This document shows positions 4,728 to 38,448 of a DNA stretch of 43,572 nt, piece by piece; position 1 is the first letter of the stretch, and each line of letters begins with the position of its first letter. The notes under the pieces were generated by a model. That model worked only from the letters and a program-made list of their open reading frames with translations. It was not told the DNA's origin and did not search any database. The translations under genes were made by a program, and so were the position numbers. This DNA is from Candidatus Gastranaerophilales bacterium. Lineage in GTDB: Bacteria > Cyanobacteriota > Vampirovibrionia > Gastranaerophilales > Gastranaerophilaceae. Where the stretch lies: NCBI GenBank assembly GCA_944324365.1, contig CALUWA010000017.1, positions 1 to 43,572 on the forward strand, written 5' to 3'.

Positions 4728-6092
4728 TTAGTATCTTTCAAGGTATCTGTCGATTTCCCATTGAGAAACGTAGGTTCTGAACGAATCCCATTCTTTACGT
4801 TTTGCAGACATAAATTCGTTAAATGCATGATCGCCTAATGCAGCTCTGCCCACGAGAGATTTATCGAGGTATTCCAAAGCTTCTGCAAGAGAACCCGGAA
4901 GAGAATCTATTCTCTGTTTCTTACGTTCTTTTGTTGTTAATTTGTAGATGTTGCTTTCTACAGGTGCCGGCGGATCAATTTTATTTCTTACCCCGTCAAG
5001 ACAAGCCTCTAAAATTGCCGCAAAAGCTAAATACGGGTTGCATGCAGGATCCGGAGAGCGCAACTCAACACGGGTTGAATTGCCGCGTTTTGCAGGAACT
5101 CTCAATAACGCACTTCTGTTTGCTAACGACCAGGCAAGGTAAACAGGTGCTTCGTAACCCGGAACAAGACGTTTGTAGCTGTTTACTGTCGGGTTTAGAA
5201 TTGCAGTAATGCTTTTTACGTGTTTTAACATACCGCCGATAGCGTATTTTGCGGTGTCTGAAAGTTCATATTCGGCATTCGGATCATAAAACGCGTTTTT
5301 ACCGTCTTTAAACAGTGAAACATTGCAATGCATTCCGGAGCCGTTTATGCCGTATATAGGTTTTGGCATAAATGTCGCGTGAAGATTGTGCTTTGCCGCA
5401 ATTGCTTTTACTGCAATTTTAAATGTTGCAACGTTATCTGCTGTTGTTAAAATATCTGCGTATCTGAAATCAACTTCGTGCTGTCCGTCTGCAACTTCGT
5501 GATGAGAAGCTTCAATATCAAATCCCATTTCCTGCAGAGTTAAAACGATATCGGATCTTACATCTTCTCCCAAATCTTCCGGGCCTACGTCGTAATATCC
5601 GGCTCTGTCTTGTGTTGTTGTTGTGACTTTTCCGTCTTTATCTTTTGCAAACAAGAAAAATTCTGCTTCGGGCCCCATATTCATTGAGAACCCCATTTTA
5701 TCAGCTTCTTTCATTACTCTTTTTAAGTTGCATCTAGGGCAGCCTTCAAACGGAGTTCCGTCCGCATTGTATATATCGCATATCAACCTTGCGGAATGTA
5801 TTCCGCCCTGCTCTCTCCACGGAAGAATTTGGAATGTATTTTTATCAGGATGGAAAAACATATCAGAGGTTTCAATACTTCTGAACCCTTTGATAGATGA
5901 ACCGTCAAGCATAATTTCATTTTCCAGTGCTTTATCAATATGTTCGGAAGGGATTGTCATATTTTTTACCTGTCCGTTTATATCAACAAACTGAAGTTTG
6001 ATGAATTTGATATTGTACTCTTTGATTAATCTTTTGATTTCATCATCGCTGAATTGTTTGTTGTCCAGTCTTGTGTGTGTAAATTCTTTCAT
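4728..6092 (-). CDS. glnA: Glutamine synthetase, type I
   Basis: ATP-dependent synthesis of glutamine from glutamate and ammonia, the main entry point of nitrogen. The 454-residue protein shows LDGSSIKGFRSIETSDM, the metal-site segment EAEFFLF, the NGSGMHCNVSLFKDG ATP/glutamate loop, and LLRVPAKRGNSTRVELRSPD. Around the position where adenylylated enzymes have the tyrosine of NLYDLPP it reads NIYKLTTKERKKQRIDSLPG, as in the GSI-alpha enzymes of Firmicutes and relatives, so control by adenylylation is unlikely. ATG 6092 is chosen over one five codons upstream because AGAGGGA sits correctly before it. A consensus-like promoter lies at 6142-6170. No NtcA GTA-N8-TAC site is evident. Confidence 0.96.
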   Translation of the reverse strand: MKEFTHTRLDNKQFSDDEIKRLIKEYNIKFIKLQFVDINGQVKNMTIPSEHIDKALENEIMLDGSSIKGFRSIETSDMFFHPDKNTFQILPWREQGGIHSARLICDIYNADGTPFEGCPRCNLKRVMKEADKMGFSMNMGPEAEFFLFAKDKDGKVTTTTQDRAGYYDVGPEDLGEDVRSDIVLTLQEMGFDIEASHHEVADGQHEVDFRYADILTTADNVATFKIAVKAIAAKHNLHATFMPKPIYGINGSGMHCNVSLFKDGKNAFYDPNAEYELSDTAKYAIGGMLKHVKSITAILNPTVNSYKRLVPGYEAPVYLAWSLANRSALLRVPAKRGNSTRVELRSPDPACNPYLAFAAILEACLDGVRNKIDPPAPVESNIYKLTTKERKKQRIDSLPGSLAEALEYLDKSLVGRAALGDHAFNEFMSAKRKEWDSFRTYVSQWEIDRYLERY

Positions 6093-6141
6093 AAATCCCT
6101 CTTTCATTAATTGTTACACTGTTTCTATAATCTATTTTTCT

Positions 6142-6170: not shown

Positions 6171-6405
6171 TAGCTCCGGATGTAAAGATTTGATAAAGGT
6201 TTGATGTATTATGAGTTGTTTATTTAAATTTAGAATTATATTCTGTAAAACTCATGTTTCCAGTTAAAAATTTTATCCCGGATTCGCTTATTTATTATAT
6301 TTAGTCTGTTTTAAAGATGATTTTATTTGTAAAGTTATGTAACAAAATATATAAGATATAGCAATTATATACTTTAAAAATACTTTATTAATATGTAAGT
6401 AACAA

Positions 6406-6533
6406 CGAATTAAATAAACACGAGAATCATAAAATACACAAACTATTTACACTACCTACTACACACTAACCTTCTACACACACGAGGAATTGTAAAAGAT
6501 TCCAAACTCTATCAAAAGATAGAGTTTTTTTTT
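6406..6533 (+). ncRNA. Candidate small RNA A (G-poor, CU-rich, with terminator)
   Basis: No open frame occupies 6171-6554. On the plus strand a block TTAAATAAACACGAGA (6410-6425) is followed by a 58-base stretch with no G at all (6426-6483) containing CTACCTACTACACACTAACC, then a small hairpin GGAAT/ATTCC (6486-6503) and a terminator. The layout and several sequence blocks recur at 32961-33080. The unpaired CU-rich part could pair with purine-rich Shine-Dalgarno regions, as in C-rich regulatory sRNAs. The 5' end is set by alignment with copy B; no convincing promoter was found for this copy. The part 6171-6405 holds TGTAACAAAA (6339-6348) but no other feature I can name. Confidence 0.55.
6504..6533 (+). 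terminator. Terminator of candidate sRNA A
   Basis: AAACTCTATC and GATAGAGTTT form a 10-bp stem with loop AAAA, followed by a run of nine T on the plus strand only. This fixes the direction of the transcript it ends and rules out aroH, which is on the minus strand. Confidence 0.88.
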
Positions 6534-6554: not shown

Positions 6555-6905
6555 TTAATTGCGTAAGTCTTTTGCACCTTTCATATATACAAATTTCGGT
6601 ACAAAACCTTCAATGCAGTTAACAACTATTAAAACTCTCAGGCACATTTGTAATGATCCCGGAACATTAAGTTCATGAAAACAAATCATAGCAGCATCAG
6701 TCCATTTTAATTCTTCACGTGCGAATTTTGCAGGAAATGCTGCATTTAAATCCTCCGTTAATGTAAAGAACACATGTGATATACTTCTTTTACTGATACT
6801 GTTTTGAGTTATCATTTCATTCAATAATTCCAAAGTTGCAGTTTTTATTGCTTCTTCAGTATTCTGTTCTACTGTAATTGCGCCTCTAATACCTTTTGTA
6901 ATCAT
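6555..6905 (-). CDS. aroH: Chorismate mutase, AroH class
   Basis: The 116-residue protein matches the small trimeric chorismate mutase of Bacillus: the start IRGAITVEQNTEEAI with the arginine of the active site, the segment VFFTLTEDLNAAFPAKFARE, and the NVPGSLQMCLRVLI motif with its second active-site arginine. It converts chorismate to prephenate for phenylalanine and tyrosine. Its ATG overlaps the fmt stop (ATGA), so it is the last gene of the dnaJ-queE-def-fmt-aroH transcript; the pairing with formyltransferase has no obvious functional logic. Confidence 0.94.
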   Translation of the reverse strand: MITKGIRGAITVEQNTEEAIKTATLELLNEMITQNSISKRSISHVFFTLTEDLNAAFPAKFAREELKWTDAAMICFHELNVPGSLQMCLRVLIVVNCIEGFVPKFVYMKGAKDLRN

Positions 6906-8435: not shown

Positions 8436-9110
8436 TTATCTTACGTTTAGAAATTTGTGCATTTGTGGAATGAGCCTGGTTTGCGGGTATAGTGTAATAA
8501 ATTTTTTGAATATTTCTTCAATTTGCGCGGTTGTTAAGGTGAAGTTATTCCCGCTCATTTCGGGCTGCAGGATGAGTTCAAAATTATATTTCTTTGCAAG
8601 TGCTATTGAAGATTGGATTTCTTCATCTGTTATATTTTTATTGAATACCACTTTTGCAAACAGTTCTTTTGAAGATGCTATTTCAAAAAAATTGTCAAAA
8701 ACATCAGATGATATTTCTTCCCCGGTTGCACTTTTTAGCTTTATATCAGCGGATATTATATCAACAAATTGGATAACTTCTTCTAATTTTTCAGTCAAAG
8801 TTGCATTTGTTTCAAGATAAATTTTATGTCCGTATTGCTTTGCCTGCGGTAAAAATTCTTTTAAAAATTCTGCTGATAATAAAGGTTCCCCGCCAGTAAG
8901 CGAGAGTGTTAACGGCCTGTCATATTTGTTGATTTCAGTTAAAAGTTCCTGCACGGTGTACTCTTTTGATTTCGAGAGTTCAAAATCGGTGTCGCAATAT
9001 GCACAATGCAAGTTGCACTTGCAAAATCTTATAAACAGCTGTTCTTCTCCGATATAGGGGCCTTCGCCCTGTATTGATAAAAATATTTCTCTTATATGGG
9101 TTTTAGTCAT
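8436..9110 (-). CDS. queE: 7-carboxy-7-deazaguanine synthase QueE (radical SAM)
   Basis: Makes 7-carboxy-7-deazaguanine from carboxytetrahydropterin in the preQ0/queuosine pathway. The 224-residue protein shows EIFLSIQGEGPYIGEEQLFI, the cluster-binding CNLHCAYCDTDF (C-x3-C-x2-C), LSLTGGEPLL, and the C-terminal LILQPEMSGN. QueC, QueD and QueF are not in the window. The start overlaps the dnaJ stop by eight bases. The phenylalanine-glutamate strand order is that of bacterial QueE and differs from activases, which are larger. Confidence 0.93.
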   Translation of the reverse strand: MTKTHIREIFLSIQGEGPYIGEEQLFIRFCKCNLHCAYCDTDFELSKSKEYTVQELLTEINKYDRPLTLSLTGGEPLLSAEFLKEFLPQAKQYGHKIYLETNATLTEKLEEVIQFVDIISADIKLKSATGEEISSDVFDNFFEIASSKELFAKVVFNKNITDEEIQSSIALAKKYNFELILQPEMSGNNFTLTTAQIEEIFKKFITLYPQTRLIPQMHKFLNVR

Positions 9111-17454: not shown

Positions 17455-17772
17455 ATGGCAAGCACAAAAAGACAAAGAATCAGAGTTTGTTTGAAAGCAT
17501 ATGATCACAAATTGATCGATGTATCTTCTGACAAAATTGTTGAAACAGCAAAAAGAACTGACGCTAAAGTTGCAGGCCCGATTCCTTTACCTACTAAAAG
17601 ACGTATATATTGCGTTTTGAGATCACCACACGTAGATAAAAAATCTCGTGAACATTTTGAAATGAGAACTCATAAACGTATTATCGATATATATGAACCA
17701 ACTCAACAGACAACTGAAGAGTTAAGTAGATTAGATTTGCCGGCCGGTGTAGATATTGAAGTTAAATTATAA
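17455..17772 (+). CDS. rpsJ: 30S ribosomal protein S10
   Basis: The 105-residue protein has the S10 core: [19 protein letters not shown], the loop [20 protein letters not shown] and [13 protein letters not shown]. It is part of the 30S head and, with NusB, of antitermination complexes. AAAAGGAA precedes the ATG. It is the first gene of the cluster; the str genes (rpsL, rpsG, fusA, tuf) that precede it in most bacteria are absent and uvrA lies upstream instead. Confidence 0.98.
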
Positions 17773-17974
17773 TTTCAACAGCCAAATCGGTCAAAATTGA
17801 AAATTAAATAAGCATTATGCATATTATAATGTGATCTACTACCCGTCAAAGACGGTGGGTGAAAGTCCCGAAGGTAAAGTACAAGGCAGCAAGTAGCGCT
17901 CGCAAGTGAAAATGCAAACCCGAAACGGGGCGGAGAGTGTCCGCACCAAGTAAGGTGAGCTAGAAAGGTAAAAT
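17773..17974 (+). promoter_or_regulatory. Structured 202-base S10-L3 spacer
   Basis: No gene. From about 17832 the spacer becomes GC-richer than its neighbours and folds into consecutive hairpins: CCCG-AAA-CGGG (17919-17929), GCGGA / TCCGC (17930-17944) and CACC / GGTG (17944-17957), ending just before the L3 Shine-Dalgarno. CTACT pairs with AGTAG further upstream. GGTGAAAGTCC is reminiscent of group II intron text, but no intron-encoded protein or domain V is present. An r-protein-binding leader is possible but not shown. Confidence 0.4.
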
Positions 17975-18610
17975 ATGACACTAGGTGTAATAGGTAAAAA
18001 GTTAGGAATGACCCAGATTTTCGATGAGCAAGGGTTAGCTATTCCTGTAACAGTTATCCAAGTTGATGATATCGTTGTTACTCAGGTTAAAACTGTAGAA
18101 ACTGACGGTTACAATGCTATCCAGGTTGGTACAATTCCTGCTAAGGAAAAACATTTGACTAAAGCTCAGTTAGGTCATTTTAAGAAAAATAACCTGAACA
18201 ATTACAGACATCTTCAGGAATTCAGAGTTGATAATCCTCAAGACTACAAAGTAGGCGATAAAATCGAATTATCAATTTTGGACAATGTGGAAAAAGTTGA
18301 TGTAACCGGTAAATCAATAGGTAAAGGTTTCCAAGGTACGGTAAAAAGATGGAACTTCGGCAGAGGACCTATGGGTCACGGTTCAAAGAACCACAGAGAA
18401 CCGGGTTCAATCGGTGCTGGTACAACTCCTAGCCGTGTTATTAAAGGTAAAAGAATGGCCGGTAACATGGGCAACGAAAGAGTTACTATTACTAAGTTGA
18501 AATTAGTTAAAATTGATGCTGATAAAAAATTAGTATTAGTAAAAGGTTCAGTTCCGGGTTGCGAAGGAAGACTTGTAACAATAGTTCCTTCAAGAACTAA
18601 ATGGAACTAA
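17975..18610 (+). CDS. rplC: 50S ribosomal protein L3
   Basis: The 211-residue protein starts LGVIGKKLGMTQIFDEQG and contains the central extension with KGFQGTVKRWNFGRGPMGHG, which reaches the peptidyl transferase centre, and GNMGNERVTI near the C-terminus. The glutamine that is methylated by PrmB in some bacteria lies in this loop region. GAAAGG precedes the ATG. It is separated from rpsJ by 202 bases and from rplD by 240, where adjoining genes are usual. Confidence 0.98.
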   Translation: MTLGVIGKKLGMTQIFDEQGLAIPVTVIQVDDIVVTQVKTVETDGYNAIQVGTIPAKEKHLTKAQLGHFKKNNLNNYRHLQEFRVDNPQDYKVGDKIELSILDNVEKVDVTGKSIGKGFQGTVKRWNFGRGPMGHGSKNHREPGSIGAGTTPSRVIKGKRMAGNMGNERVTITKLKLVKIDADKKLVLVKGSVPGCEGRLVTIVPSRTKWN

Positions 18611-18850
18611 CGGATTTTGCGTAGAGTGAGTGAGTGAAACGAACGAAACTTGAAGGTGCGCAAACCGAAGCGAAAGACAGCGAAAGCGAATTGAGCGTCA
18701 GGTTTGAGTGAGGCAATAATCCAAGACCAAGACAGTAATTCAGACAAGGAAAAGTCATAAAAACCGGCTGGTTCTGCCAAATAAAGCAATAAAGCAAGCG
18801 GTAGGCAGTCTTAAACGGAAGATATTAAAATAGTAAAGGAAATTAAAACA
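18611..18850 (+). other. Long L3-L4 spacer with repeat-like sequence
   Basis: No gene on the coding strand. The first half is purine-rich with repeated GCGAA and GAGTGA units; TTGAGCGTCAG here also occurs inside the repeat copy at 29532-29902. ATAATCCAAGACCAAGACAG (18716-18735) recurs with one change in the S8-L6 spacer (26247-26266). The spacer may include decayed repeat sequence. Confidence 0.4.
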
Positions 18851-19480
18851 ATGTCAAAAGAAATATTAAGCTCAAATGGTGAAAAATTAGGCGAAATTAC
18901 TTTGGAAAAAAGTGTTTTCGGTGTTGAACCTAATTTGCACGTAATGCATTTAGCATTAAGAAGACAATTAAACAATGCTCGTCAGGGTTCTGCTTGCACA
19001 AAAACAAGAGCAGAAGTTTCCGGCGGAGGTAAAAAGCCTTGGAAACAAAAAGGTACAGGCCGCGCTAGAGCCGGTTCTCTTCGTTCACCTTTGTTTGCAG
19101 GCGGTGGTGTAATCTTCGGACCAAAACCGAGAAGTTTTGCATTTTCTATGCCTCAAAAAGCCAGAAAATTAGCTTTAAAATCAGCATTGTCTTCAAGAGA
19201 AGAACAGTTAGTAATTGTAAAAGATTTTTCTGCAATTACTGAACCTAAAACAAAATTAATGGCTTCATCTTTGAAATCATTAAACTTAAACGGCAAAATT
19301 CTTATTGTAGCGGATTTCCGTGCTGATGAAAATAAAAATTTAGAATTAGCTGCCAGAAATATACCTTCAGTAAAATTAATATTGCCTTCAAATTTGAATG
19401 TAAAAGATTTGTTGGAAGCTGATAACGTTGTAATAACAGAAGCAGCTGTTAATGAAATTACTGAAAGATTAAGCAAATAG
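18851..19480 (+). CDS. rplD: 50S ribosomal protein L4
   Basis: The 209-residue protein has the typical extended loop rich in Gly, Lys and Arg (KTRAEVSGGGKKPWKQKGTG then RARAGSLRSPLFAGGG) that lines the exit tunnel, and the C-terminal Rossmann-like part ending EAAVNEITERLSK. In enteric bacteria L4 represses its own operon through the S10 leader; whether the leader here is used so is unknown. AAAGGAAA precedes the ATG. rplW follows after 29 bases. Confidence 0.98.
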   Translation: MSKEILSSNGEKLGEITLEKSVFGVEPNLHVMHLALRRQLNNARQGSACTKTRAEVSGGGKKPWKQKGTGRARAGSLRSPLFAGGGVIFGPKPRSFAFSMPQKARKLALKSALSSREEQLVIVKDFSAITEPKTKLMASSLKSLNLNGKILIVADFRADENKNLELAARNIPSVKLILPSNLNVKDLLEADNVVITEAAVNEITERLSK

Positions 19481-19509
19481 TTAAATCTAAAATTAAAAGG
19501 ATAAGTAAA

Positions 19510-19818
19510 ATGAGTAAAAACAGAACAAACACAGAAAAGTTATATGATGTAATTAAAAGACCTTTAATTACAGAAAAAACAGTGGCAGGCTCAGCATTAG
19601 GCAAATATACTTTTGAAGTTCGTAAAGATGCTACAAAAATTGACATTGCAAAAGCCGTAGAATTAGCTTTTCCTGGTAGAAAAGTTAAGAGCGTAAACAC
19701 TGTATATATGCCATCTCACGAAAAGAGAATGGGATATAAATTCGGTAGAACTGACAGCTCAAAGAAAGCTATTGTAACTATCGAAGGCGATCCGATTGAA
19801 GAATTAATCGGCGCATAA
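19510..19818 (+). CDS. rplW: 50S ribosomal protein L23
   Basis: The 102-residue protein shows LYDVIKRPLITEKTVAGSAL and KYTFEVRKDATKIDIAKAVE, the tunnel-exit protein that docks trigger factor and SRP. The C-terminus GYKFGRTDSSKKAIVTIEG is normal. AAAAGGAT precedes the ATG. A 161-base spacer follows before rplB, with inverted repeats such as ATTCC/GGAAT and GGCC-AGCA-GGCC but no gene. Confidence 0.98.
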   Translation: MSKNRTNTEKLYDVIKRPLITEKTVAGSALGKYTFEVRKDATKIDIAKAVELAFPGRKVKSVNTVYMPSHEKRMGYKFGRTDSSKKAIVTIEGDPIEELIGA

Positions 19819-19979
19819 CGGATTCCGGCAAAAGAACCGAGGAATGGATAACAAACTTGGTTCAAGCAGGCTGAAAGCAGAATTAAATGTTCGGCCGCCA
19901 AAAATCCGGGCCAGCAGGCCAAAACGGGGCGTAAGGCATAGGTCCCGAAAGTAGACAAAAGCCAAAAAGGAGAAAAATA

Positions 19980-20810
19980 ATGGCAATCAGAAAAATTAAT
20001 CCGACATCTCCGGGACAAAGAGGTATGACAAAGAGTGATTACCAAGATATCACTTCTTCAACTCCAGAAAAATCCCTGTTGAAAAAATTAAAAAAGACAG
20101 CAGGAAGAAATAATACAGGTAGAATTACATGTCGTCACAAAGGTGGCGGTGTAAAAAGAGCTTACCGTGTAATAGATTTTAGACGTGAAAAATTCGGAGT
20201 TCCGGCAGTAGTTAAAACAGTGGAATATGATCCGAACAGAAACGTAAGAATTTCATTAGTGTTCTATGCTGATGGTGAAAAAAGATATATTTTGACACCG
20301 GAAGGCTTGAACGTTGGTGATACAATTGTAAGCGGTCCGGAAGCTCCTGTTCAGACAGGTAATGCGCTTCCGCTTGAACTAATTCCGTTAGGTACAATGG
20401 TTCATAATATTGAATTAAACCCTGGTCGAGGCGGAGTTATGGTTAGAGCAGCAGGTAATGCGGCTCAAGTAATGGCTAAAGAAGGCAATTATGTTACAAT
20501 CAAGCTTCCATCATCAGAAATGAGAATGGTAAGAAAAGAATGTATGGCAACAATTGGTGTCCTTGGTAATTCCGAATTCAAAAACCTCTCTTGGGGTAAA
20601 GCCGGAAGAAAACGTTACTTAGGTATCAGGCCGACAGTTCGTGGTGTAACAATGAACCCTTGCGATCACCCTCACGGTGGTGGTGAAGGTAAGACCGGTC
20701 CTGGCGGACACCCTAAAACACCTTGGGGCAAACCGGCTCTTGGTCATAAGACAAGAAAAGTCGGCAAGGCTTCTGATAAACTAATTGTTAGAAGAAGAAA
20801 AGGTAAGTAA
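19980..20810 (+). CDS. rplB: 50S ribosomal protein L2
   Basis: At 276 residues it is full length. Seen are the zinc-free RNA-binding core [20 protein letters not shown], the SH3-like middle domain, and the universally conserved C-terminal region with the catalytic-centre histidine in [19 protein letters not shown]. It binds 23S rRNA near the peptidyl transferase centre. AAAAAGGAG precedes the ATG by a good distance. The 77-base gap to rpsS is longer than usual. Confidence 0.98.
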
Positions 20811-20887
20811 TACGTAGCCGGAGGAATAAATTTCCTCAACAATCGCACAAGCGATAAACAAGACAAAACCAAAAGGAGAAAATATTA

Positions 20888-21169
20888 ATGGCACGTTCAT
20901 TAAAAAAAGGTCCATACGTAGAAGAAGCTCTACAACAAAAAATTGCTAAAATGAATGCAAATTCAGAAAAAAAAGTAATAAAAACCTGGTCAAGAGCATC
21001 AATGATTGTACCTGATATGTTAGGTCACACAATTGCTGTTCATAACGGAAAAACCCATGTACCGGTTTATGTAACAGAGCAGATGATTGGACATAAGTTA
21101 GGTGAGTTTGCACCTACAAGATTATTCAAAGGTCACGCAGGTTCAGCGAAAACTGCAAAAGTAAAATAA
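20888..21169 (+). CDS. rpsS: 30S ribosomal protein S19
   Basis: The 93-residue protein begins [18 protein letters not shown] and has the family core [20 protein letters not shown] and [14 protein letters not shown]. It forms the top of the 30S head with S13 and contacts bridge B1a. AAAGGAGA precedes the ATG. rplV follows after 18 bases. Confidence 0.98.
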
Positions 21170-21187
21170 TTATAAGGAATAAAAAAA

Positions 21188-21523
21188 ATGGAAGCTAAAG
21201 CAAAACAAACAGATATAAAAATGACAGCAAGAAAATTGCGCCGTGTAATAAACGAAGTTCGCGGCAAGAAAGTTCTTGAAGCTCAAGATATGTTACGTTT
21301 TATGCCTTATTTTGCAGCAAGAGTAGTTGAAAAGAACTTGAAAGCTGCTATTGCAAATGCTCAGGAAAAGTATGGTGTATCACCGGAAGCATTAAAGATT
21401 TCCGAAATCTATGCTGACGAAAGCCAAACATACAGACGTGGTAAACCAAGAGCACAAGGTCGAATCTATAGAAGACTAAAACGTACATCACATCTTACAT
21501 TAAAAGTTAGTGATAATAAGTAG
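21188..21523 (+). CDS. rplV: 50S ribosomal protein L22
   Basis: The 111-residue protein has the long beta hairpin that lines the exit tunnel, ending in GKPRAQGRIYRRLKRTSHLT, and the N-terminal helix AKQTDIKMTARKLRRVINEV. No change that obviously implies macrolide resistance is visible in the loop. AAGGAA precedes the ATG. rpsC follows after 24 bases. Confidence 0.97.
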   Translation: MEAKAKQTDIKMTARKLRRVINEVRGKKVLEAQDMLRFMPYFAARVVEKNLKAAIANAQEKYGVSPEALKISEIYADESQTYRRGKPRAQGRIYRRLKRTSHLTLKVSDNK

Positions 21524-21547
21524 AAGGTAAAATAAAAGGTATAAAAT

Positions 21548-22279
21548 ATGGGACAAAAAACACATCCAAACGGATTCAGAGTAGGTATAATCAAACCTTG
21601 GGAAAGCACTTGGTATGCTAAGTTCAAGGAATACCGTACTTTTGTAAAAGAAGATGATAAAATCAGAAAATTTATTAAGAAAAAATTGTACGCAGCCGGC
21701 GTATCAAAAATAAAAATATCCAGAAAAGCCCAAAATATTACTATTACAGTAGTTACAGCAAAACCTGGTATTGTAGTAGGCCGCGGCGGACAAGGTATTG
21801 ATGAATTAAGACAGGATGTTTCAAAATATATTGGAAAACCGGTTATCATCAATGTTGTAGAAGTTGCAAGAATTGATGCAGATGCTCAATTGGCAGCTGA
21901 AAATATTGCTCAGCAATTAGAAAAACGTATTGCTTTCAGAAGAGCAATGAAACAACAAATGCAGCGTACAATGAGAGCCGGCGTTCAAGGTATCAAAGTT
22001 ATGGTATCAGGACGTTTAGGCGGTGCTGAAATTGCTCGTTCAGAATGGGCTAAAGAAGGAAGAATTCCTCTTCAGACATTAAGAGCTGACGTAGACTACG
22101 GTTTTACCGAAGCAGATACAATCATGGGTAAAATCGGTGTTAAGGTATGGATTTTCAAAGGTAACTTGTTGCCTGGTGAAAAGGCCGACCAAAATATCAA
22201 AGCTAAATCAGGAAAAGAAGGTTCTGACAAAGGCGCTCGCCGTCCGAGAAGAAGAGCCATCGAAACTACTGAAGGCTAG
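21548..22279 (+). CDS. rpsC: 30S ribosomal protein S3
   Basis: The 243-residue protein begins [20 protein letters not shown] and contains the KH domain motif [20 protein letters not shown] and the C-terminal domain with [21 protein letters not shown]3 forms part of the mRNA entry channel and its helicase. The C-terminal tail is basic ([11 protein letters not shown]). AAAAGGT precedes the ATG. Confidence 0.98.
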
Positions 22280-22319
22280 AGAATAGTTAAGTAAAAAATA
22301 ATTAACAGGAGTAAATAAA

Positions 22320-22739
22320 ATGTTACAGCCTAAAAAAACAAAATACCGCAAAATGATGAAAGGCAGAATGAAAGGACATGAAACAAGAGGTACAAAACTT
22401 GAGTTCGGTTCTTACGCATTGCAAGCCTTAGAACCTGGTTGGATTACCAGCCGTCAGATCGAGGCTGCACGTCGTGCTATGACTCGTGAAATCAAACGTG
22501 GCGGTAACGTTTGGATTAAAATATTCCCGGACAAACCGATTACTGCAAAACCGGCTGAAACTCGTATGGGTTCCGGAAAAGGTAATTTGGAATACTGGGT
22601 TGCGGTTGTAAAACCGAACAGAATTCTTTTCGAACTTGAATACTTTGACAGAAATGTTGCTGTAAATGCATTGGAATTGGCAGCACAGAAACTGCCTATC
22701 AAAGTAAAAGTTGTAGAAAAGGCAAAATTAGAAGCGTAA
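22320..22739 (+). CDS. rplP: 50S ribosomal protein L16
   Basis: The 139-residue protein has [20 protein letters not shown], the A-site proximal loop [18 protein letters not shown] and [21 protein letters not shown]16 positions the aminoacyl-tRNA elbow. ACAGGAG precedes the ATG. rpmC follows after 24 bases. Confidence 0.98.
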
Positions 22740-22763
22740 ACTAAAGTAAAAGGAAAATATAAA

Positions 22764-22964
22764 ATGAAATTAAGTGAAATGCGCGAAAAATCAACAGATG
22801 AGTTACAAAGTGCAATTCTTGAATGGAAAAAACAATTGATGGATTGTAAAATTAAACTTGCAACTCATAAATTGGAAAACACAGCACTAGTGTCTAAGAC
22901 AAAGCGCTTAATAGCTCAAGCGAAAACAGTAATAAAAGAAAAAGAGGTACAACAAAATGCCTAA
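22764..22964 (+). CDS. rpmC: 50S ribosomal protein L29
   Basis: The 66-residue two-helix protein shows [20 protein letters not shown] and the conserved [18 protein letters not shown] segment. It sits at the tunnel exit beside L23. AAAAGGAAA precedes the ATG. Its last eight bases overlap rpsQ, the only overlap of r-protein genes in this cluster. Confidence 0.96.
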
Positions 22965-23202
22965 GAAAGAAAAACAAGGAATAGTAGTAAGCAACAAAAT
23001 GGATAAGACAATTGTCGTAAAAGTTGCTGATTATGAACCTCATCCGAAATACAAAAAGATTATGGAAACAAACAAAAATTACAAAGCTCACGATGAACAG
23101 AACATCTGTAATGTTGGTGATACTGTAAGAATTATAGAATCAAGGCCAATCTCAGGTGACAAACGCTGGACTTTGTTAGAAGTTGTTGAAAAAGCTCGTT
23201 AA
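22957..23202 (+). CDS. rpsQ: 30S ribosomal protein S17
   Basis: The 81-residue OB-fold protein has [20 protein letters not shown] and [19 protein letters not shown], the hallmark of S17. It binds helix 11 of 16S rRNA. The start lies inside rpmC with GAGG seven bases before it. A 97-base spacer, with hairpin CATTAC-CATAGA-GTAATG, separates it from rplN. Confidence 0.97.
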
Positions 23203-23299
23203 TATTTGATTGAGCAAAGCATAATTTTACAAAACGGATAGACAACATTACCATAGAGTAATGAGAGGTCGAAAGTAGAAAAAAATAAGGAACAAAACA

Positions 23300-23668
23300 A
23301 TGATACAACAAGAAACAAGACTAGAAGTCGCAGATAACACAGGTGCAAAACAGTTGTTATGCATTCGTGTTATGGGCAGTTCAAATAAGAAATTTGCTGC
23401 AGTAGGCGATGAAATAGTTGCAACAGTAAAGGATGCAACACCAAATCAGGCTGTTAAAAAATCTGAAGTTGTAAGAGCGGTTGTAGTCAGAACAAAAGCT
23501 GATATCAAACGTGCTGACGGCTCAGTAATCAGATTTGATGAAAATGCAGCTGTAATAATCAACAAAGACGGTAACCCGCGCGGTACTCGTGTATTCGGAC
23601 CTGTAGCCCGCGAATTGAGAGATAAAGGATATATGAAGATCGTTTCTCTCGCACCGGAAGTTATATAG
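23300..23668 (+). CDS. rplN: 50S ribosomal protein L14
   Basis: The 122-residue protein starts [20 protein letters not shown] and ends [20 protein letters not shown], with the L14 core [20 protein letters not shown] and [20 protein letters not shown]. It lies at the subunit interface and binds RsfS. TAAGGAA precedes the ATG. A 149-base spacer follows, with the inverted pair CCGAAAT (23715-23721) / ATTTCGG (23753-23759). Confidence 0.98.
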
Positions 23669-23817
23669 ACGGTTTTGGCAAACCTCTGTACAGAACTGAA
23701 ACTGTAGAGTAAGACCGAAATCAAATATCAAAAACCCGGGATAATTAAACTTATTTCGGACTGGAACAATAGGTCGATAGAGTTCAGGCAAAAATTATAA
23801 AATAAAGGATAATAAAA

Positions 23818-24153
23818 ATGGCAAATGATAAGAAAAAATTGCATGTTAAAACCGGTGACAGAGTTATCGTATTAGCAGGCAAAGATAAAGGCAAAATCGG
23901 AAATATTAAAAAAACAAATCCGACAGATTCAACAGTAATTGTTGAAGGCGCAAACATGGTGACAAAGGCACAAAAGCCGCAGCCAATGGCTGGAATTCAG
24001 GGCGGTTTAATTAAACTTGAAGCACCTTTGGATTCTTCAAAAGTTATGGTTGTATGTCCGGCTTGCGAAAAACCGACAAGGATCAAACACGCAGTTGTTG
24101 ATGGCAAAAAAGTTCGTGTTTGTAAAAAATGTGGTGAACAATTGGATGTGTAA
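23818..24153 (+). CDS. rplX: 50S ribosomal protein L24, with C-terminal CxxC pairs
   Basis: The 111-residue protein contains the KOW motif GDRVIVLAGKDKGKIGNIKK and the assembly-initiator features of L24. Its C-terminus has two cysteine pairs, VVCPACEKPTRI and VRVCKKCGEQLD, a zinc-ribbon-like tail known in L24 of several phyla and missing in enterics. AAAGGAT precedes the ATG. rplE follows after 57 bases. Confidence 0.97.
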   Translation: MANDKKKLHVKTGDRVIVLAGKDKGKIGNIKKTNPTDSTVIVEGANMVTKAQKPQPMAGIQGGLIKLEAPLDSSKVMVVCPACEKPTRIKHAVVDGKKVRVCKKCGEQLDV

Positions 24154-24210
24154 GGTTTGTTTTACGATAAAATGAACATATACATCCGCTAGAATTAAGG
24201 AAATACGAAA

Positions 24211-24768
24211 ATGACAAAAACAGAAAGTTTAAAAAAGAAATATGACGAAGAAGTCAAATCAGCACTAAAAGAAAAATTTGGCTATAAAAATGATATGCAG
24301 ATACCTAAACTTCATAAAATTGTAATAAATATGGGTGTAGGTGAAGCTTCTCACAACTCAAAAATAGCTGAAGCAATTGAGGCTCAATTGACAAAAATAG
24401 CTGGTCAGAAATGTGTTATAACAAAGGCTAAAAAGTCAATTGCTTCTTATAAATTAAGAGAAGGTATGCCTGTTGGAGCTATGGCGACTTTAAGAGGGGA
24501 AAGAATGTATGATTTCCTTCAGAAATTAATATGTGTTGTATTCCCTCGTATTCGTGACTTTAGAGGTATCAGTGCAAAATCTTTCGACGGACGCGGAAAC
24601 TATACACTTGGTTTGAAAGAACAGGCATTATTCCCTGAAATTACGTATGAAGAAGTTGATTTGGTAAAAGGTATGAACGTTTCAATTATTACAACTGCTG
24701 AAACTGATGATGAAGCAAGAGAATTGTTGAGGTTGTTAGGTATGCCTTTTAAAGGAATGAACAAGTAA
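24211..24768 (+). CDS. rplE: 50S ribosomal protein L5
   Basis: The 185-residue protein has the L5 signatures [39 protein letters not shown] and [20 protein letters not shown], and a normal C-terminus. It binds 5S rRNA with L18. TAAGGAAA precedes the ATG. The 85-base spacer to rpsN contains a perfect hairpin GTTATAT-AAA-ATATAAC. Confidence 0.98.
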
Positions 24769-24853
24769 GGTGCCTTTAGCATCTTATACCCTGGGCTGTT
24801 TGGCTTAGAGGTTATATAAAATATAACAAACAAAGTAATAAAGGAGATAATTC

Positions 24854-25060
24854 ATGGCTAAAAAAGCGATGATAGACAAAGAACTAAAAAGAGAAGCTCT
24901 TGCTGCAGCAGGAAAATATCCTAAAGTAAGACTTCATAACAGATGCAGTATTTGCGGCAGACCTCACGGTTACCACAGAGACTTTGGTCTGTGCAGAATT
25001 TGTCTACGAAAAATGGCTCATCAGGGTTTATTGCCTGGTGTTACAAAAGCTAGCTGGTAA
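24854..25060 (+). CDS. rpsN: 30S ribosomal protein S14, zinc-binding short type
   Basis: The 68-residue protein is the type Z form with cysteine pairs in [18 protein letters not shown] and [12 protein letters not shown]. It belongs to the 30S head near S3 and S10. AAAGGAG precedes the ATG. A terminator follows it (25108-25139) and the next r-protein gene is 764 bases away, so the S10-S14 block should be one transcription unit. Confidence 0.97.
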
Positions 25061-25107
25061 GCTAATTGCTTTTTAATTTTAATATTAAGATTAACAAACA
25101 ATTTACT

Positions 25108-25139
25108 AAAAAAGACCGATTTGCTACCGGTCTTTTTTT
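25108..25139 (+). terminator. Terminator after rpsN
   Basis: AAAGACCG and CGGTCTTT form an 8-bp stem, A-rich before and followed by a T run. Its presence inside what is normally one uninterrupted spc operon separates S14 from S8. Confidence 0.88.
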
Positions 25140-25279
25140 GTATGCATATATTCAATATGTTATAATTACTTAATATATAATAAATATTTAGCAATTATAT
25201 AATGCAAATTGTTTTTATGTTTGTATAAGAAATTTCTTAGCTATTAACAAGAAGATATTTACGAAAGGAGTATAGTTTT

Positions 25280-25495
25280 ATGACTATGGTGGATAAAGTG
25301 CTTTCAAAAGCTCTTGGCAGGGCAAATAACTCAGATAAAGAGACTCGTTTAAGAAATAGAGAAGAAAAGTAATATCGCGAATTAAAAGCCAGCAAGTCTT
25401 TGACAGAAGATCAACAAAAAAGATTTGATGAATTGGATAAAAAATTTAATCCGGTAAGAAATAATCCTAATATATGGAAAAATATTCATCAATAG
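25280..25495 (+). pseudogene. Small gene interrupted by an in-frame stop, between S14 and S8
   Basis: AAAGGAG stands before ATG 25280. The frame reads MTMVDKVLSKALGRANNSDK and on to REEK, where TAA (25370-25372) stops it after 30 residues. The same frame then continues without another stop for 40 codons, YRELKASKSLTEDQQKRFDE and on to WKNIHQ, ending with TAG at 25493-25495, and a terminator follows. One base change (GAA or CAA to TAA) would explain it. The intact 71-residue product would be small, basic and helical; no family is recognised. A real 30-residue protein cannot be excluded. The rest of 25140-25279 holds nothing I can name. Confidence 0.55.
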
Positions 25496-25545
25496 TATCA
25501 AAGTCAAATATATTTGCCAAATAATATAAATAGAAAGGTATAGAT

Positions 25546-25579
25546 AAAAACCTCTTTTGTTGTAACAAAGGAGGTTTTT
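25546..25579 (+). terminator. Terminator after the interrupted small gene
   Basis: AAAAACCTC and GAGGTTTTT with inner TTTGT/ACAAA form a long, nearly perfect stem around a TGTA loop. It ends a transcript of the small gene independent of the ribosomal genes. Confidence 0.88.
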
Positions 25580-25601
25580 GTAATATATTTTAATTTTTAT
25601 C

Positions 25602-25630
25602 TTGTATTTGTGTAGTATTTGTGGTAATGT
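25602..25630 (+). promoter_or_regulatory. Candidate promoter of the S8-L6-L18 unit
   Basis: -35 TTGTAT (25602-25607), 17-base spacer, -10 TAATGT (25625-25630). The predicted start near 25637 gives a leader of about 188 bases to rpsH. Expected because a terminator precedes it. Confidence 0.5.
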
Positions 25631-25637
25631 AGACTTA

Positions 25638-25824
25638 CAGTTCCGAACTGCCGGGGAACGCCCTGGGGTAGATAAGTTCAAAGAATACTGGGTATGCTGT
25701 TTAGCGGTTCCGGTATGGAGAATGAAACCCTGAAAATAAAGGCAAAAGTTAGCCCGGTAAGCGGTGTAATAGTTAATCAGGATACTGCCTGTGAACTGTG
25801 CAGGTAAGTCCGGAGGTATTTATT
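25638..25824 (+). promoter_or_regulatory. Structured leader of rpsH
   Basis: GC-richer than the flanks and without a gene. Hairpins: CAGTT / AACTG (25638-25650), and CCGGGG / CCCTGG with loop AACG and one G-U pair (25651-25666). A further hairpin CCTG...CAGG lies just before the Shine-Dalgarno GGAGG (25812-25816). S8 is a known autoregulator of its operon in enterics; a similar use of this leader is inference. Confidence 0.45.
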
Positions 25825-26223
25825 ATGTCAATGACAGATCCTATAGCAGATATGCTAACAAGAATCAGAAATGCTAACATGGTTGCTCACGAAACAGTTA
25901 GCATCCCGGCTTCTAAGCTTAAAATTGAATTAGCAAAATTGTTAAAATCAGAAGGTTTTATTGCTGATTACGAAGTTAAAGACGCTGGAAAATTTAAAGA
26001 AATCGTTGTAACTCTTAAGTATGACGAAAGAAAAAGACCTGTTATTTCCAAATTGGAAAGAATTTCTAAACCTGGTTTGAGAAGCTATTGCAAAGCTAAA
26101 AATCTTCCTAAAGTATTGGGCGGATTGGGTGTTGCTATTGTTTCAACAAGCAAAGGTTTGTTAACAGACAGAAAAGCCCGCAAAGAAAATATTGGCGGCG
26201 AAGTAATTTGCTACATTTATTAA
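25825..26223 (+). CDS. rpsH: 30S ribosomal protein S8
   Basis: The 132-residue protein starts [19 protein letters not shown] and ends with the RNA-binding [23 protein letters not shown] 25825 is chosen because GGAGG lies eight bases before it; an upstream in-frame codon would add nine residues not found in the family. Central assembler of the 30S platform. It opens the second transcription unit of the cluster. Confidence 0.97.
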
Positions 26224-26333
26224 TGGATGTTGCTTTGAGAGAAGCGATAATCCAAGATCAAGACAGCGGATTTCGGTATAATTGGTAGAAAAACCGAAAA
26301 GAGGTACAAATATATACCAAAAGGAGAAAAGAA

Positions 26334-26873
26334 ATGTCACGTATAGGAAAGAAACCTATTGAAATCCCTCAAGGGGTGGAAGTAAAAATAGATGGTCAAT
26401 TAGTTACGGCAAAAGGACCTTTAGGCGAAGAATCAGTTAACGTTCGTCCTGAAATTGCTGTAAAAATTGAAGATAATCATATCGTTTTATCTAAAGTTGG
26501 CGATTCAAGAGAAACCGATGCTTTGTACGGCTTATCAAGAACTCTTGTTGCAAATGCTGTACACGGTGTAAAAGAAGGTTTTGAGAAGAAACTTGAAATC
26601 CAAGGTGTAGGCTACCGTGCTAATATGGAAGGCAAAAACCTTAATTTGGCATTAGGCTACTCTCACCCTGTAATTGTTGAACCGCCGGCAGGAATTACTA
26701 TTTCTGTTGAAGCTAACACAAAAATCAGTGTTAAAGGTTCTAACAAGCAAACAGTTGGTGATGTTGCAGCTTTCATCAGATCAAAACGTCCGCCTGAAGT
26801 TTATAAAGGTAAAGGTATCAGATATGAAGGCGAACACATCAGACGTAAAGCAGGTAAAGCTGGTAAGAAATAA
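26334..26873 (+). CDS. rplF: 50S ribosomal protein L6
   Basis: The 179-residue protein has the duplicated L6 fold; SRIGKKPIEIPQGVEVKIDG at the start and the C-terminal PEVYKGKGIRYEGEHIRRKA are diagnostic. AAAAGGAG precedes the ATG. The 110-base spacer before it contains ATAATCCAAGATCAAGACAG (26247-26266), which also occurs in the L3-L4 spacer. The last base of its stop codon is the first base of the next ATG. Confidence 0.98.
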   Translation: MSRIGKKPIEIPQGVEVKIDGQLVTAKGPLGEESVNVRPEIAVKIEDNHIVLSKVGDSRETDALYGLSRTLVANAVHGVKEGFEKKLEIQGVGYRANMEGKNLNLALGYSHPVIVEPPAGITISVEANTKISVKGSNKQTVGDVAAFIRSKRPPEVYKGKGIRYEGEHIRRKAGKAGKK

Positions 26874-27187
26874 TGATTAGCAATGTATCATTTGGCGGGT
26901 ATTATATGATAAAATTCCCAAAATCAACTCCGGATAGCAAAATCAAAGCTACAAAAGAGTTAATGGATAATCATGTAAAAGAAAATAAATATATGTATAT
27001 GGATACACTTTTAAGAAAGGATATTCAACCGCAAAACTCAGAACAGTCAACGACGGATATTCTATTCTTAACCAATATAGATAATTCCGCCCAAATCTAT
27101 GATACATTGTCTGTCGTAAGTCCAAAACTTGCTGACCAATATCTGGATAAAACAAAGGTTTATTTAAACCTTGACACAATAGCGTAA
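26873..27187 (+). CDS. Uncharacterised small protein inserted between L6 and L18
   Basis: The 104-residue frame begins at TAATG, the stop-start junction with rplF, so translation is coupled to L6. It starts MISNVSFGGYYMIKFPKSTP, continues with a charged helical part and ends DKTKVYLNLDTIA. No family is recognised. L6 and L18 are adjacent in nearly all bacteria, so a non-ribosomal gene here is unusual. Its N-terminus with SFGG resembles the tag on the AAA ATPase at 10221-11630. A second methionine at residue 12 is a possible start but lacks a Shine-Dalgarno. Confidence 0.7.
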   Translation: MISNVSFGGYYMIKFPKSTPDSKIKATKELMDNHVKENKYMYMDTLLRKDIQPQNSEQSTTDILFLTNIDNSAQIYDTLSVVSPKLADQYLDKTKVYLNLDTIA

Positions 27188-27247
27188 ATTAATTGCATGT
27201 GAAGGGTGTAAAAGCCCGCTAAAACAAGTAATGAAAGGAAAATTAAA

Positions 27248-27616
27248 ATGATTAAAACTAAAGTTAGAAAAACTCAGGTACAAAAAAGACACCAAACTAT
27301 CAGGGTAAAAATCTCAGGAACACCTGATTGCCCAAGATTGGCTGTTTACAGAAGTACAAAACATATCTATGCTCAATTGATTGATGATGTTAACCATGTA
27401 ACTTTGGCTTCAGCGTCTTCAATTGACAAAGATTTGAAAGAAAAATTGCCTCACGGCGGTAATATTGATGCTGCAAAAGTTGTTGGTGAAGCAATAGCTA
27501 AAAAAGCACTTAAAGCCGGTATCAAAGATGTTGTTTTTGACAGAGGCGGATTCTTGTATCACGGCCGTGTACAGGCTCTTGCTGATGCAGCTCGTGAAGC
27601 AGGTTTGAACTTCTAA
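27248..27616 (+). CDS. rplR: 50S ribosomal protein L18
   Basis: The 122-residue protein has [35 protein letters not shown] and the C-terminal [20 protein letters not shown], all diagnostic. It binds 5S rRNA with L5. AAAGGAAA precedes the ATG. The genes that normally follow (rpsE, rpmD, rplO, secY) are missing; a terminator and a convergent acyl-CoA ligase gene come next. Confidence 0.98.
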
Positions 27617-32888: not shown

Positions 32889-32960
32889 GTGTAAAGAAAT
32901 GTAACAAAAAATAAAAGCTATGAAATTGTGTATTTAGTATATACTTTATATATACAACAG

Positions 32961-33080
32961 AACATTAAATAAACACACGAGAGAGAGTATAAAATCCGTT
33001 TAACAAAGAGAGAGAAACATTCATTCCTATTCCTACCTTCCTAAAACAAATTTAAGCCCCGAAACCGGGGCTTTTTTTTT
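32961..33080 (+). ncRNA. Candidate small RNA B (related to A)
   Basis: The 190-base gap between pyk and miaB has no gene. A possible promoter is -35 TTGTGT (32926-32931), 17 bases, -10 TATATA (32949-32954). The block TTAAATAAACAC (32965-32976) then GAGAGAGAG and TATAAAAT matches copy A at 6410-6436; upstream both share ATGTAACAAAA and ATACTTTAT. Next comes a G-free stretch, about 39 bases from 33018, containing CCTATTCCTACCTTCCT, which could pair with Shine-Dalgarno-like AGGAAGG. It ends with a strong hairpin AGCCCCG / CGGGGCT (33054-33072) and nine T, on the plus strand only, opposite in direction to miaB. Confidence 0.6.
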
Positions 33081-37059: not shown

Positions 37060-38448
37060 ATGGATGCAGTTACAAATAAAACATTAGAAAAGTTAAAGTA
37101 TGATTTGGTCAGAGCGGGATTGGTGCCTTATGACACTTTGGAGCAGGCGGAAGAGCTTGCGCAGGCACAGAATATTAATATTGGGCAGGTTTTGATTAAT
37201 TCGGGCGCAATTACGGAAGAGGCAATTATAAAATTCCTTGAGTCAAAACTCCATATCCCTTCTGTAGATCTTGAGGATTATACATTGGATGTAAAATGCC
37301 TTAAGTTTGTGAGTTTTTCTGATGCAAGAAAGTATAAAATTATTCCGTTGTTCAAGATAGAAGATACTTTAACGGTGGCTATGGCAGATCCTCTGGATTT
37401 ATTTGCCATAGACAGAATTGTCGAGAGCGCGGAATGTTCAATAGAGCCGGTTATAGCTTCCGAATCCAGTATTTTAAAGAAAATTGAAGAATATTATAAA
37501 ACTGATATTACTGTCGGGGAAATTTTTACCCAGAGCGAAAAAGAAGGTTTTGACTGGCGAGATGAGCTTCACAGCGAAGATTTAAGCGATAATCATATGC
37601 AAAAGATTATCCGCGCTGTTTTGAAGCAGGCCATAATTGAACATGTTCATGAAGTCAGTTTTCAAAAGGATGCGGACGGTTTGGGCGTAAACTTTAAAAA
37701 GAACGGCGAAATTCTTTCAAAAGGTTCCATTCCTAATGTTTTAGCCGCATCTTTCAGTGCAAAATTAAAAACACTTGCGGAACTTGATCCTTCTGTTTCA
37801 GAGGTTCCTCAGCTTGGAAAATTATGCTTTAAAGTTGATGATATAACGGTAGTGACAAGCGTATCTACATTTCCAACGATTATGGGAGAGAGAATTTTCC
37901 TGAAAATTTATATGCCGCCAAAGAAACTTTCAACTATTATCAAGTCCGAAAAACAAATGCAAATTATAAATAATGCATTGAGCAGTCCTGGGATTATTCT
38001 TGTCTGCGGTTCGCCGTTAAGCGGGAAAACGCATGTTATATACTCGCTTTTGCTTGAAATTGCAGAAAGATTTAAGAACAAAAATATCATGACGCTTGAA
38101 AGCCTTGCAAAATATAATCTTGAAGATGTAAATCAGTGTGAATTGAACGAAAATATTAATTTTAATATGGATAAGGCCTCAAGGTTTATTGAATTCCAAT
38201 CGCCGGATATAATTTACCTTGAGGGGGTTAAAACAAAAGAAATTTTTGATTATTTTGCCAGTCTTGTTTACGAAGATAAAATTATAATTATGGAATTTCT
38301 TGCAAATAATATGGAAGATTTGCGCAAAAAAATGGCGTTTTCTGATTTTGAAACTTTAAAATCTCTTCTGAGCTGTATGATATTTATACATTCTCAGGAT
38401 AGTATAGAAGTTTTTGATAAATCTACTGTTCAGAAATATTTAGCATAA
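37060..38448 (+). CDS. Degenerate PilB/GspE-type secretion ATPase with MshEN domain
   Basis: The 462-residue protein has the N-terminal MshEN/GSPII_E domain (about 10-150; GQVLINSGAITEEAIIKFLE, ADPLDLFAIDRIVES) and a C-terminal ATPase fold with a recognisable Walker A, VCGSPLSGKTHVIYSLL. Other motifs have drifted: the Walker B region reads SPDIIYLEGVKTKEIFDYF instead of the usual GEIRD..ET form, the His box is replaced by IIIMEFLANNMEDLRK, and no CxxC zinc motif is present. It may be a non-catalytic partner or regulator of an active PilB elsewhere. It follows the receiver gene by eight bases. Confidence 0.85.
   Translation: MDAVTNKTLEKLKYDLVRAGLVPYDTLEQAEELAQAQNINIGQVLINSGAITEEAIIKFLESKLHIPSVDLEDYTLDVKCLKFVSFSDARKYKIIPLFKIEDTLTVAMADPLDLFAIDRIVESAECSIEPVIASESSILKKIEEYYKTDITVGEIFTQSEKEGFDWRDELHSEDLSDNHMQKIIRAVLKQAIIEHVHEVSFQKDADGLGVNFKKNGEILSKGSIPNVLAASFSAKLKTLAELDPSVSEVPQLGKLCFKVDDITVVTSVSTFPTIMGERIFLKIYMPPKKLSTIIKSEKQMQIINNALSSPGIILVCGSPLSGKTHVIYSLLLEIAERFKNKNIMTLESLAKYNLEDVNQCELNENINFNMDKASRFIEFQSPDIIYLEGVKTKEIFDYFASLVYEDKIIIMEFLANNMEDLRKKMAFSDFETLKSLLSCMIFIHSQDSIEVFDKSTVQKYLA

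Follow-up and report, generated by a model that had tools for sequence, protein, structure and literature searches.

The 447 bases that separate glnA (4728-6107, minus strand) from a chorismate mutase gene (6555-6905, minus strand) in a Candidatus Gastranaerophilales contig raise the question of whether this gap harbours a small RNA gene and, if so, how such an RNA would be controlled and with what it would pair. The window considered here is the whole stretch of the contig that was analysed, 43,572 nucleotides long, and positions refer to it unless another contig is named. The first-pass annotation had regarded the gap as gene-free, and it contains no open reading frame of at least 80 amino acids.

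Two predicted small RNA genes in the window

The plus strand of the gap carries a predicted unit, RNA A, with the following parts:

6391-6533 (+): predicted sRNA A, 143 nt, with a predicted start and a 3' end at T9
6409-6424 (+): leader site of A, ATTAAATAAACACGAG, a 16-nt perfect complement of sRNA C (described below)
6425-6483 (+): G-free run of A, 59 nt, unpaired
6450-6484 (+): CU-rich core of A, CACTACCTACTACACACTAACCTTCTACACACACG, unpaired and strongly conserved
6480-6488 (+): second C-complementary site of A, ACACGAGGA, 9 bp, -15.4 kcal/mol
6486-6503 (+): hairpin GGAATT...GATTCC of A, from the fold
6504-6533 (+): intrinsic terminator of A, with hairpin 6504-6527 and T9 at 6525-6533

The G-free run that had been remarked on after the leader is present, at 59 rather than 58 nt, and the two hairpins followed by nine T were correctly recognized (fold z of -4.0). 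In the terminator stem, eight pairs are altered on both sides among relatives with pairing kept; an alternative pairing to the GGAATT...GATTCC hairpin, CCUU-GAGG, is preferred by RNAalifold. Beyond the promoter and leader, the core sequence of A is CACTACCTACTACACACTAACCTTCTACACACACGAGGAAT, and ACACGAG is invariant at the second C-complementary site (alignment A1).

Conservation was assessed with covariance models of the cores in 219 genomes of the family to which the window belongs and 22 from other families of the order. The core of A (model R2) was found in 212 of the 219 family genomes and in none of the 22 outside. A is often present in two to five copies per genome, some of them in tandem, and the records that carry it include Candidatus Gastranaerophilales, Melainabacteria and Cyanobacteria metagenome-assembled genomes. 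Tandem or nearby duplicates occur in several species (L066, L100, L101, L144, L162 and L174), and copies of A frequently lie at contig ends, as though assemblies break there.

The genes beside A vary: glnA is the neighbour in approximately 53 of 133 loci, and elsewhere a glycosidase-like gene, tsaD, a GAPDH-like gene or others are found, so A is not the untranslated region of one gene. A peptide-coding gene in A was rejected, as the core shows 2-nt and 3-nt length changes in the alignment of relatives and has no start codon. The same observations, together with a promoter and terminator of its own and the breadth of conservation, argue against A and B being untranslated or attenuated leaders, remnants of neighbouring genes or small-peptide genes; with transcription of both being a prediction, some room is left for this explanation, but we regard it as extremely improbable. 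The unit thus has an own promoter, no open reading frame and an intrinsic terminator, and is kept across gene contexts, as expected of an independent sRNA gene. Judged from its sequence, the stretch of RNA A is a real, conserved, family-wide small RNA gene with predicted transcription, in agreement with the initial suggestion of a CU-rich small RNA; it stands alone, has a promoter and a terminator to itself, and is kept in genomes of Gastranaerophilales type.

The initial suggestion that A matches no known RNA family also stands: in an Rfam search of A, B and C, no family's gathering cut-off was reached. A literature search of partial coverage found no sRNA described for these bacteria. The Hfq model PF17209 had no match in this genome, and the same model also missed the Synechococcus elongatus control.

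The blocks of A had been reported to recur in the same order elsewhere in the window, and they are seen at 32890-33080, in a second predicted unit, RNA B, flanked by a pyruvate kinase gene (plus strand) and a radical-SAM/TRAM gene (minus strand):

32952-33080 (+): predicted sRNA B, about 129 nt, with a predicted start
32963-32993 (+): leader of B, CATTAAATAAACAC and GAGAGAGAGTATAAA, both perfect complements of sRNA C, -34.5 kcal/mol
33006-33015 (+): second C-complementary site of B, AAGAGAGAGA, -15.8 kcal/mol, conserved in alignment A4
33023-33042 (+): CU-rich core of B, ATTCCTATTCCTACCTTCCT, unpaired and aligned in relatives
33056-33080 (+): intrinsic terminator of B, from alignment and fold

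The recurrence is not due to chance, because the 2.05-Mb genome contains TTAAATAAACAC at exactly four places (in A, in B, antisense within sRNA C and once more on contig 27) and because both units are conserved in relatives. The interpretation of A and B as two copies of one family did not survive, since in this genome each of the core models, R2 for A and R3 for B, hits one locus only, its own; a single sRNA family with two copies was ruled out on this basis. Alignment of relatives indicates that the promoter type and the leader are all that A and B have in common, whereas their cores differ, that of B following the pattern TCCGTTTAA..AAGAGAGAGA..ATTCCTATTCCTACCTTCCTAAAA before a CCCC/GGGG terminator. 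Both cores are mostly unpaired in the folds. The core of B (model R3) was found in 113 of the 219 family genomes, almost always as a single copy, and in none of the 22 outside. A and B are therefore best described as two distinct predicted sRNA families that share a promoter and a leader.

Other features of the window include an ordinary ribosomal protein cluster of the S10-spc type (17455-27616, plus strand; L3, L2, S3 and L5 by Pfam), a type II/IV secretion ATPase with an MshEN domain (37060-38448, plus strand) and a protein with a prepilin methylation motif (38502-39473, minus strand). The last two are probably type IV pilus-like genes.

HLR1-like promoters and the RpaB regulator

The upstream blocks shared by A and B, TGTAACAAAA...ATACTTTAT, form a promoter with an HLR1-like box, TGTAAA-N4-TGTAAC, located 34-36 nt upstream of (T/A)ATACTTTAT and reading as HLR1 on the opposite strand:

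6328-6343 (+): HLR1-like box of A, TGTAAAGTTATGTAAC, 12/12 match
6379-6388 (+): predicted -10 region of A, AATACTTTAT, nearly invariant among relatives
32890-32905 (+): HLR1-like box of B, TGTAAAGAAATGTAAC, 12/12 match
32940-32949 (+): predicted -10 region of B, TATACTTTAT, conserved in relatives

HLR1 is a cyanobacterial element of two (G/T)TTACA(T/A)(T/A) repeats 2 nt apart that serves as the binding site of RpaB (PMC9241938). Two KTTACAWW repeats 2 nt apart are present in both A and B, one flanking W failing in B, and many relatives have a degenerate first half-site. Boxes matching at 10 or more of the 12 positions were found in 96% of 111 A promoters (45 of them perfect), whereas dinucleotide shuffles gave 5.7%; for 27 B promoters the values were 85% and 7%. 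Their spacing is likewise regular: 35-36 nt from the ATACTTTAT block in 110 of the 111 A promoters, and 34 nt in 22 of the 27 B promoters. With the predicted start at 6391, the box of A lies at about -63 to -48, near the position described for activation by RpaB, and RpaB is encoded in the genome (NCBIfam NF045944, 361 bits against a cut-off of 330). On the evidence of this motif, A and B are most likely sRNAs activated by RpaB.

Promoter, target and complement scans covered 775 kb, or 38%, of the 2.05-Mb genome, and in these 775 kb the only units that combine this promoter type with a terminator and lack an open reading frame were A, B and C. The same promoter type was also found before protein genes. 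An HLR1-box promoter with TATATACTTTATATATA precedes a short gene starting MAVANLKKID (L176, about 7455, minus strand) and a gene for a 287-aa low-complexity protein (L178, 10641, plus strand), both of which are candidates for further outputs of the regulator that would act on A and B. At another locus (L185, about 19347, minus strand), a GATAG tandem repeat (TAGGATAGGATAGGATAGGATA) lies just downstream of an HLR1-like box with TATAAT at 29 nt.

A third RNA complementary to both leaders

The TTAAATAAACAC site at position 8957 of contig 1 lies antisense inside a third predicted unit, through which that unit was found:

Contig 1 (L001) 8925-9014 (-): predicted sRNA C, between trxB and pilT, outside the window

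C has its own ATACTTTATATAAATGTAAG promoter and a T8 terminator, and its core of approximately 40 nt, TTTATACTCTCTCTCTTAATATCCTCGTGTTTATTTAATG, is nearly identical between genera; the alignments of C were partly selected on this core, whereas the blastn hits that show its conservation were not. It was found in 211 of the 219 family genomes and in none of the 22 outside. Unlike those of A and B, the promoters of C mostly have no HLR1-like box (30%, versus 3.6% of shuffles, at scattered distances).

The shared block TTAAATAAACACGAG(A) is complementary to C. The C core pairs with the leader of A over 16 nt (-20.7 kcal/mol) and with that of B over 14 + 15 nt (-34.5 kcal/mol), and second C-complementary sites are present in A (ACACGAGGA) and in B (AAGAGAGAGA). 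Pairing with C is stronger than for shuffled leaders, with a median z of -4.2 for A (108 leaders) and -5.6 for B (30 leaders). Conserved motifs of A and C, and of B and C, are thus mutually complementary beyond chance. In the 775 kb scanned, no exact complements of C, its own gene aside, are longer than those in A and B; the number of 12-nt complements of C there is not above that of shuffled C, so that only length and place stand out. The C query also gave antisense matches to B copies in seven relatives. Some subfamilies of A and B have no leader site and keep the second C site alone; among them is an A subfamily that retains a distal ACACACGAGGAAT (L067, L086, L092, L124, L135 and similar). 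The shared blocks had been noticed in the initial reading, which missed what they represent, namely an HLR1-like box in the promoter and a stretch complementary to a third, conserved sRNA.

The shared leader block could instead be a DNA operator or a signal for initial transcription, inverted in C by chance or by common descent. Its position directly 3' of the promoter in A and B would suit such a role, as would the GAGAG-type leaders that follow the same promoter at protein genes. In C, however, the block is found next to the terminator at the 3' end, with the promoter far away and at a variable distance, and the conserved stretch of approximately 40 nt is too long for an ordinary operator, making this alternative highly improbable.

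Candidate targets and a possible RpaB-driven circuit

It had been suggested that the CU-rich parts of these RNAs cover Shine-Dalgarno sequences. Developed into a general mechanism, in which A, B and C would be anti-Shine-Dalgarno sRNAs masking the ribosome-binding sites of many mRNAs, this suggestion draws support from the CU-rich, unpaired cores and from the better pairing of all three cores with translation starts than with mid-CDS stretches. When the cores were compared with 728 translation starts, however, that of A paired no better than its own shuffles, shuffles of C paired at least as well as C, and B was somewhat above the shuffle mean and within the shuffle spread. General masking by A finds no support in this comparison. 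As the conservation of the cores also greatly exceeds what such a role would require, we consider a general anti-Shine-Dalgarno function highly improbable.

Individual leaders contain sites that suggest more specific, if tentative, targets. The candidate site for C is in the leader of a gene for a 125-aa orphan protein (contig 1, 230689), ACACGAGAUGAUAUUAAGGAG, with the Shine-Dalgarno sequence inside it; (A)CGAG..GAUAUUAAGGAG is kept in most of 15 orthologs while the surroundings change. Part of this site, TTAAGGAG, is a common Shine-Dalgarno sequence in this genome, so the specific evidence is limited to the ACGAG-GAUA part. For A, the best candidate mRNA encodes a 349-aa orphan protein with AAGGUUAG..AAAGGUAG in its leader, where AGGUUAG is kept in 11 of 11 orthologs; AAGGTTAG ranks 10 to 18 among its 560 permutations in leaders and is not clearly enriched, so the targets of A stay tentative. 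For B, the best candidate is the mRNA of a 395-aa HEAT-repeat protein with GGUAGAAUAGGAAUAG, whose leader (L187) is conserved whole within the genus, so that conservation of the site is weak evidence there.

On balance, we lean towards A and B being trans-acting sRNAs under HLR1 boxes that pair with C, a reading in which transcription, RpaB binding, pairing in the cell, its direction and the targets are all deduced from sequence. Active RpaB would cause A and B to be transcribed from their HLR1-like promoters and to accumulate; their leaders, and the second site in each, would base-pair with C; and A and B would thereby titrate C, or be cleared together with it. Free C would mask the 5' ends and ribosome-binding sites of mRNAs with ACGAG-GAUAUUAAG(G)AG or GAGAGUAUAAA leaders, and the CU-rich cores of A and B could act as separate seeds for targets of their own. 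This direction, with C as an anti-Shine-Dalgarno effector titrated by A and B, is favoured because the candidate site of C in the leader of the 125-aa orphan has the Shine-Dalgarno sequence inside it.

A close rival runs in the reverse direction: C would be a sponge or negative regulator that promotes the decay of A and B, which would act through their CU-rich cores. Outside the C sites, no parts of A and B are better conserved than these cores, candidate mRNA sites exist for both A (in all 11 orthologs) and B, and C has no RpaB box, all of which would fit. Against it, C too has a candidate mRNA target, with the Shine-Dalgarno sequence in a site kept in most of the orthologs, and C occurs in genera that have no detected B and have lost the leader site of A. 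We judge the reverse direction unlikely, and return to the titration of C by A and B in what follows.

The working system that this arrangement most closely parallels is the Yfr1/Yfr2/Yfr10 network. The conserved Yfr1 motif is ACUCCUCACAC, and it is absent from all 324 loci examined. In that network, the motifs of the sRNAs come close to being complementary, and Yfr2 keeps Yfr1 from pairing with its targets (PMC6778093). The likeness lies in the shared phylum, near-universal presence in the group and mutually complementary conserved motifs; on the other hand, no sequence relation was found, the complementary stretch of the trio is approximately 30-40 nt, A and B carry HLR1-like boxes, and the trio is limited to one non-photosynthetic family. 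The comparison suggests that the trio works in a similar manner, and membership in the network is not claimed. A and B likewise resemble sRNA sponges, which bear the complement of an sRNA seed and are expected to titrate that sRNA (reviewed in PMC8383071), in that they carry the complement of C and would act as sponges, but in this case each partner has a free-standing sRNA gene that is deeply conserved. With RsaE-type sRNAs, A and B share a CU-rich unpaired stretch and an intrinsic terminator. RsaE pairs with Shine-Dalgarno sequences through an unpaired UCCC motif; the cores of A and B, in contrast, have no UCCC, no Rfam match and, for A, no Shine-Dalgarno enrichment.

RpaB control of an sRNA has a precedent in PsrR1, as far as the reference list of PMC9241938 indicates. 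A and B resemble that regulon in their two direct repeats 2 nt apart, at about -45 to -63 relative to the predicted start, in being sRNA outputs and in the presence of RpaB in the genome; they differ in that the host has no photosynthesis, that the first half-site is often degenerate and that neither sRNA is PsrR1 by Rfam. RpaA, RpaB and NblS persist in melainabacterial genomes even though photosynthesis is absent; RpaB has been noted there as lacking an obvious role, and these proteins may have another function (2013 eLife, PMC3787301). A and B, through their conserved HLR1-like promoters, offer a concrete candidate for an output of RpaB in non-photosynthetic cells. A family-specific three-RNA circuit, in which RpaB drives two sRNAs that titrate a near-invariant third in these non-photosynthetic gut relatives of cyanobacteria, is a possibility to which we give somewhat less than even credence; if it exists, RpaB would have an output in cells without photosynthesis. 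The parallel with Yfr1 and Yfr2 points to sets of sRNAs complementary to one another that either evolved repeatedly within the phylum or have diverged beyond recognition. Because the trio is present in much of the family, with A and C in nearly every sampled genome, it probably matters to these gut commensals.
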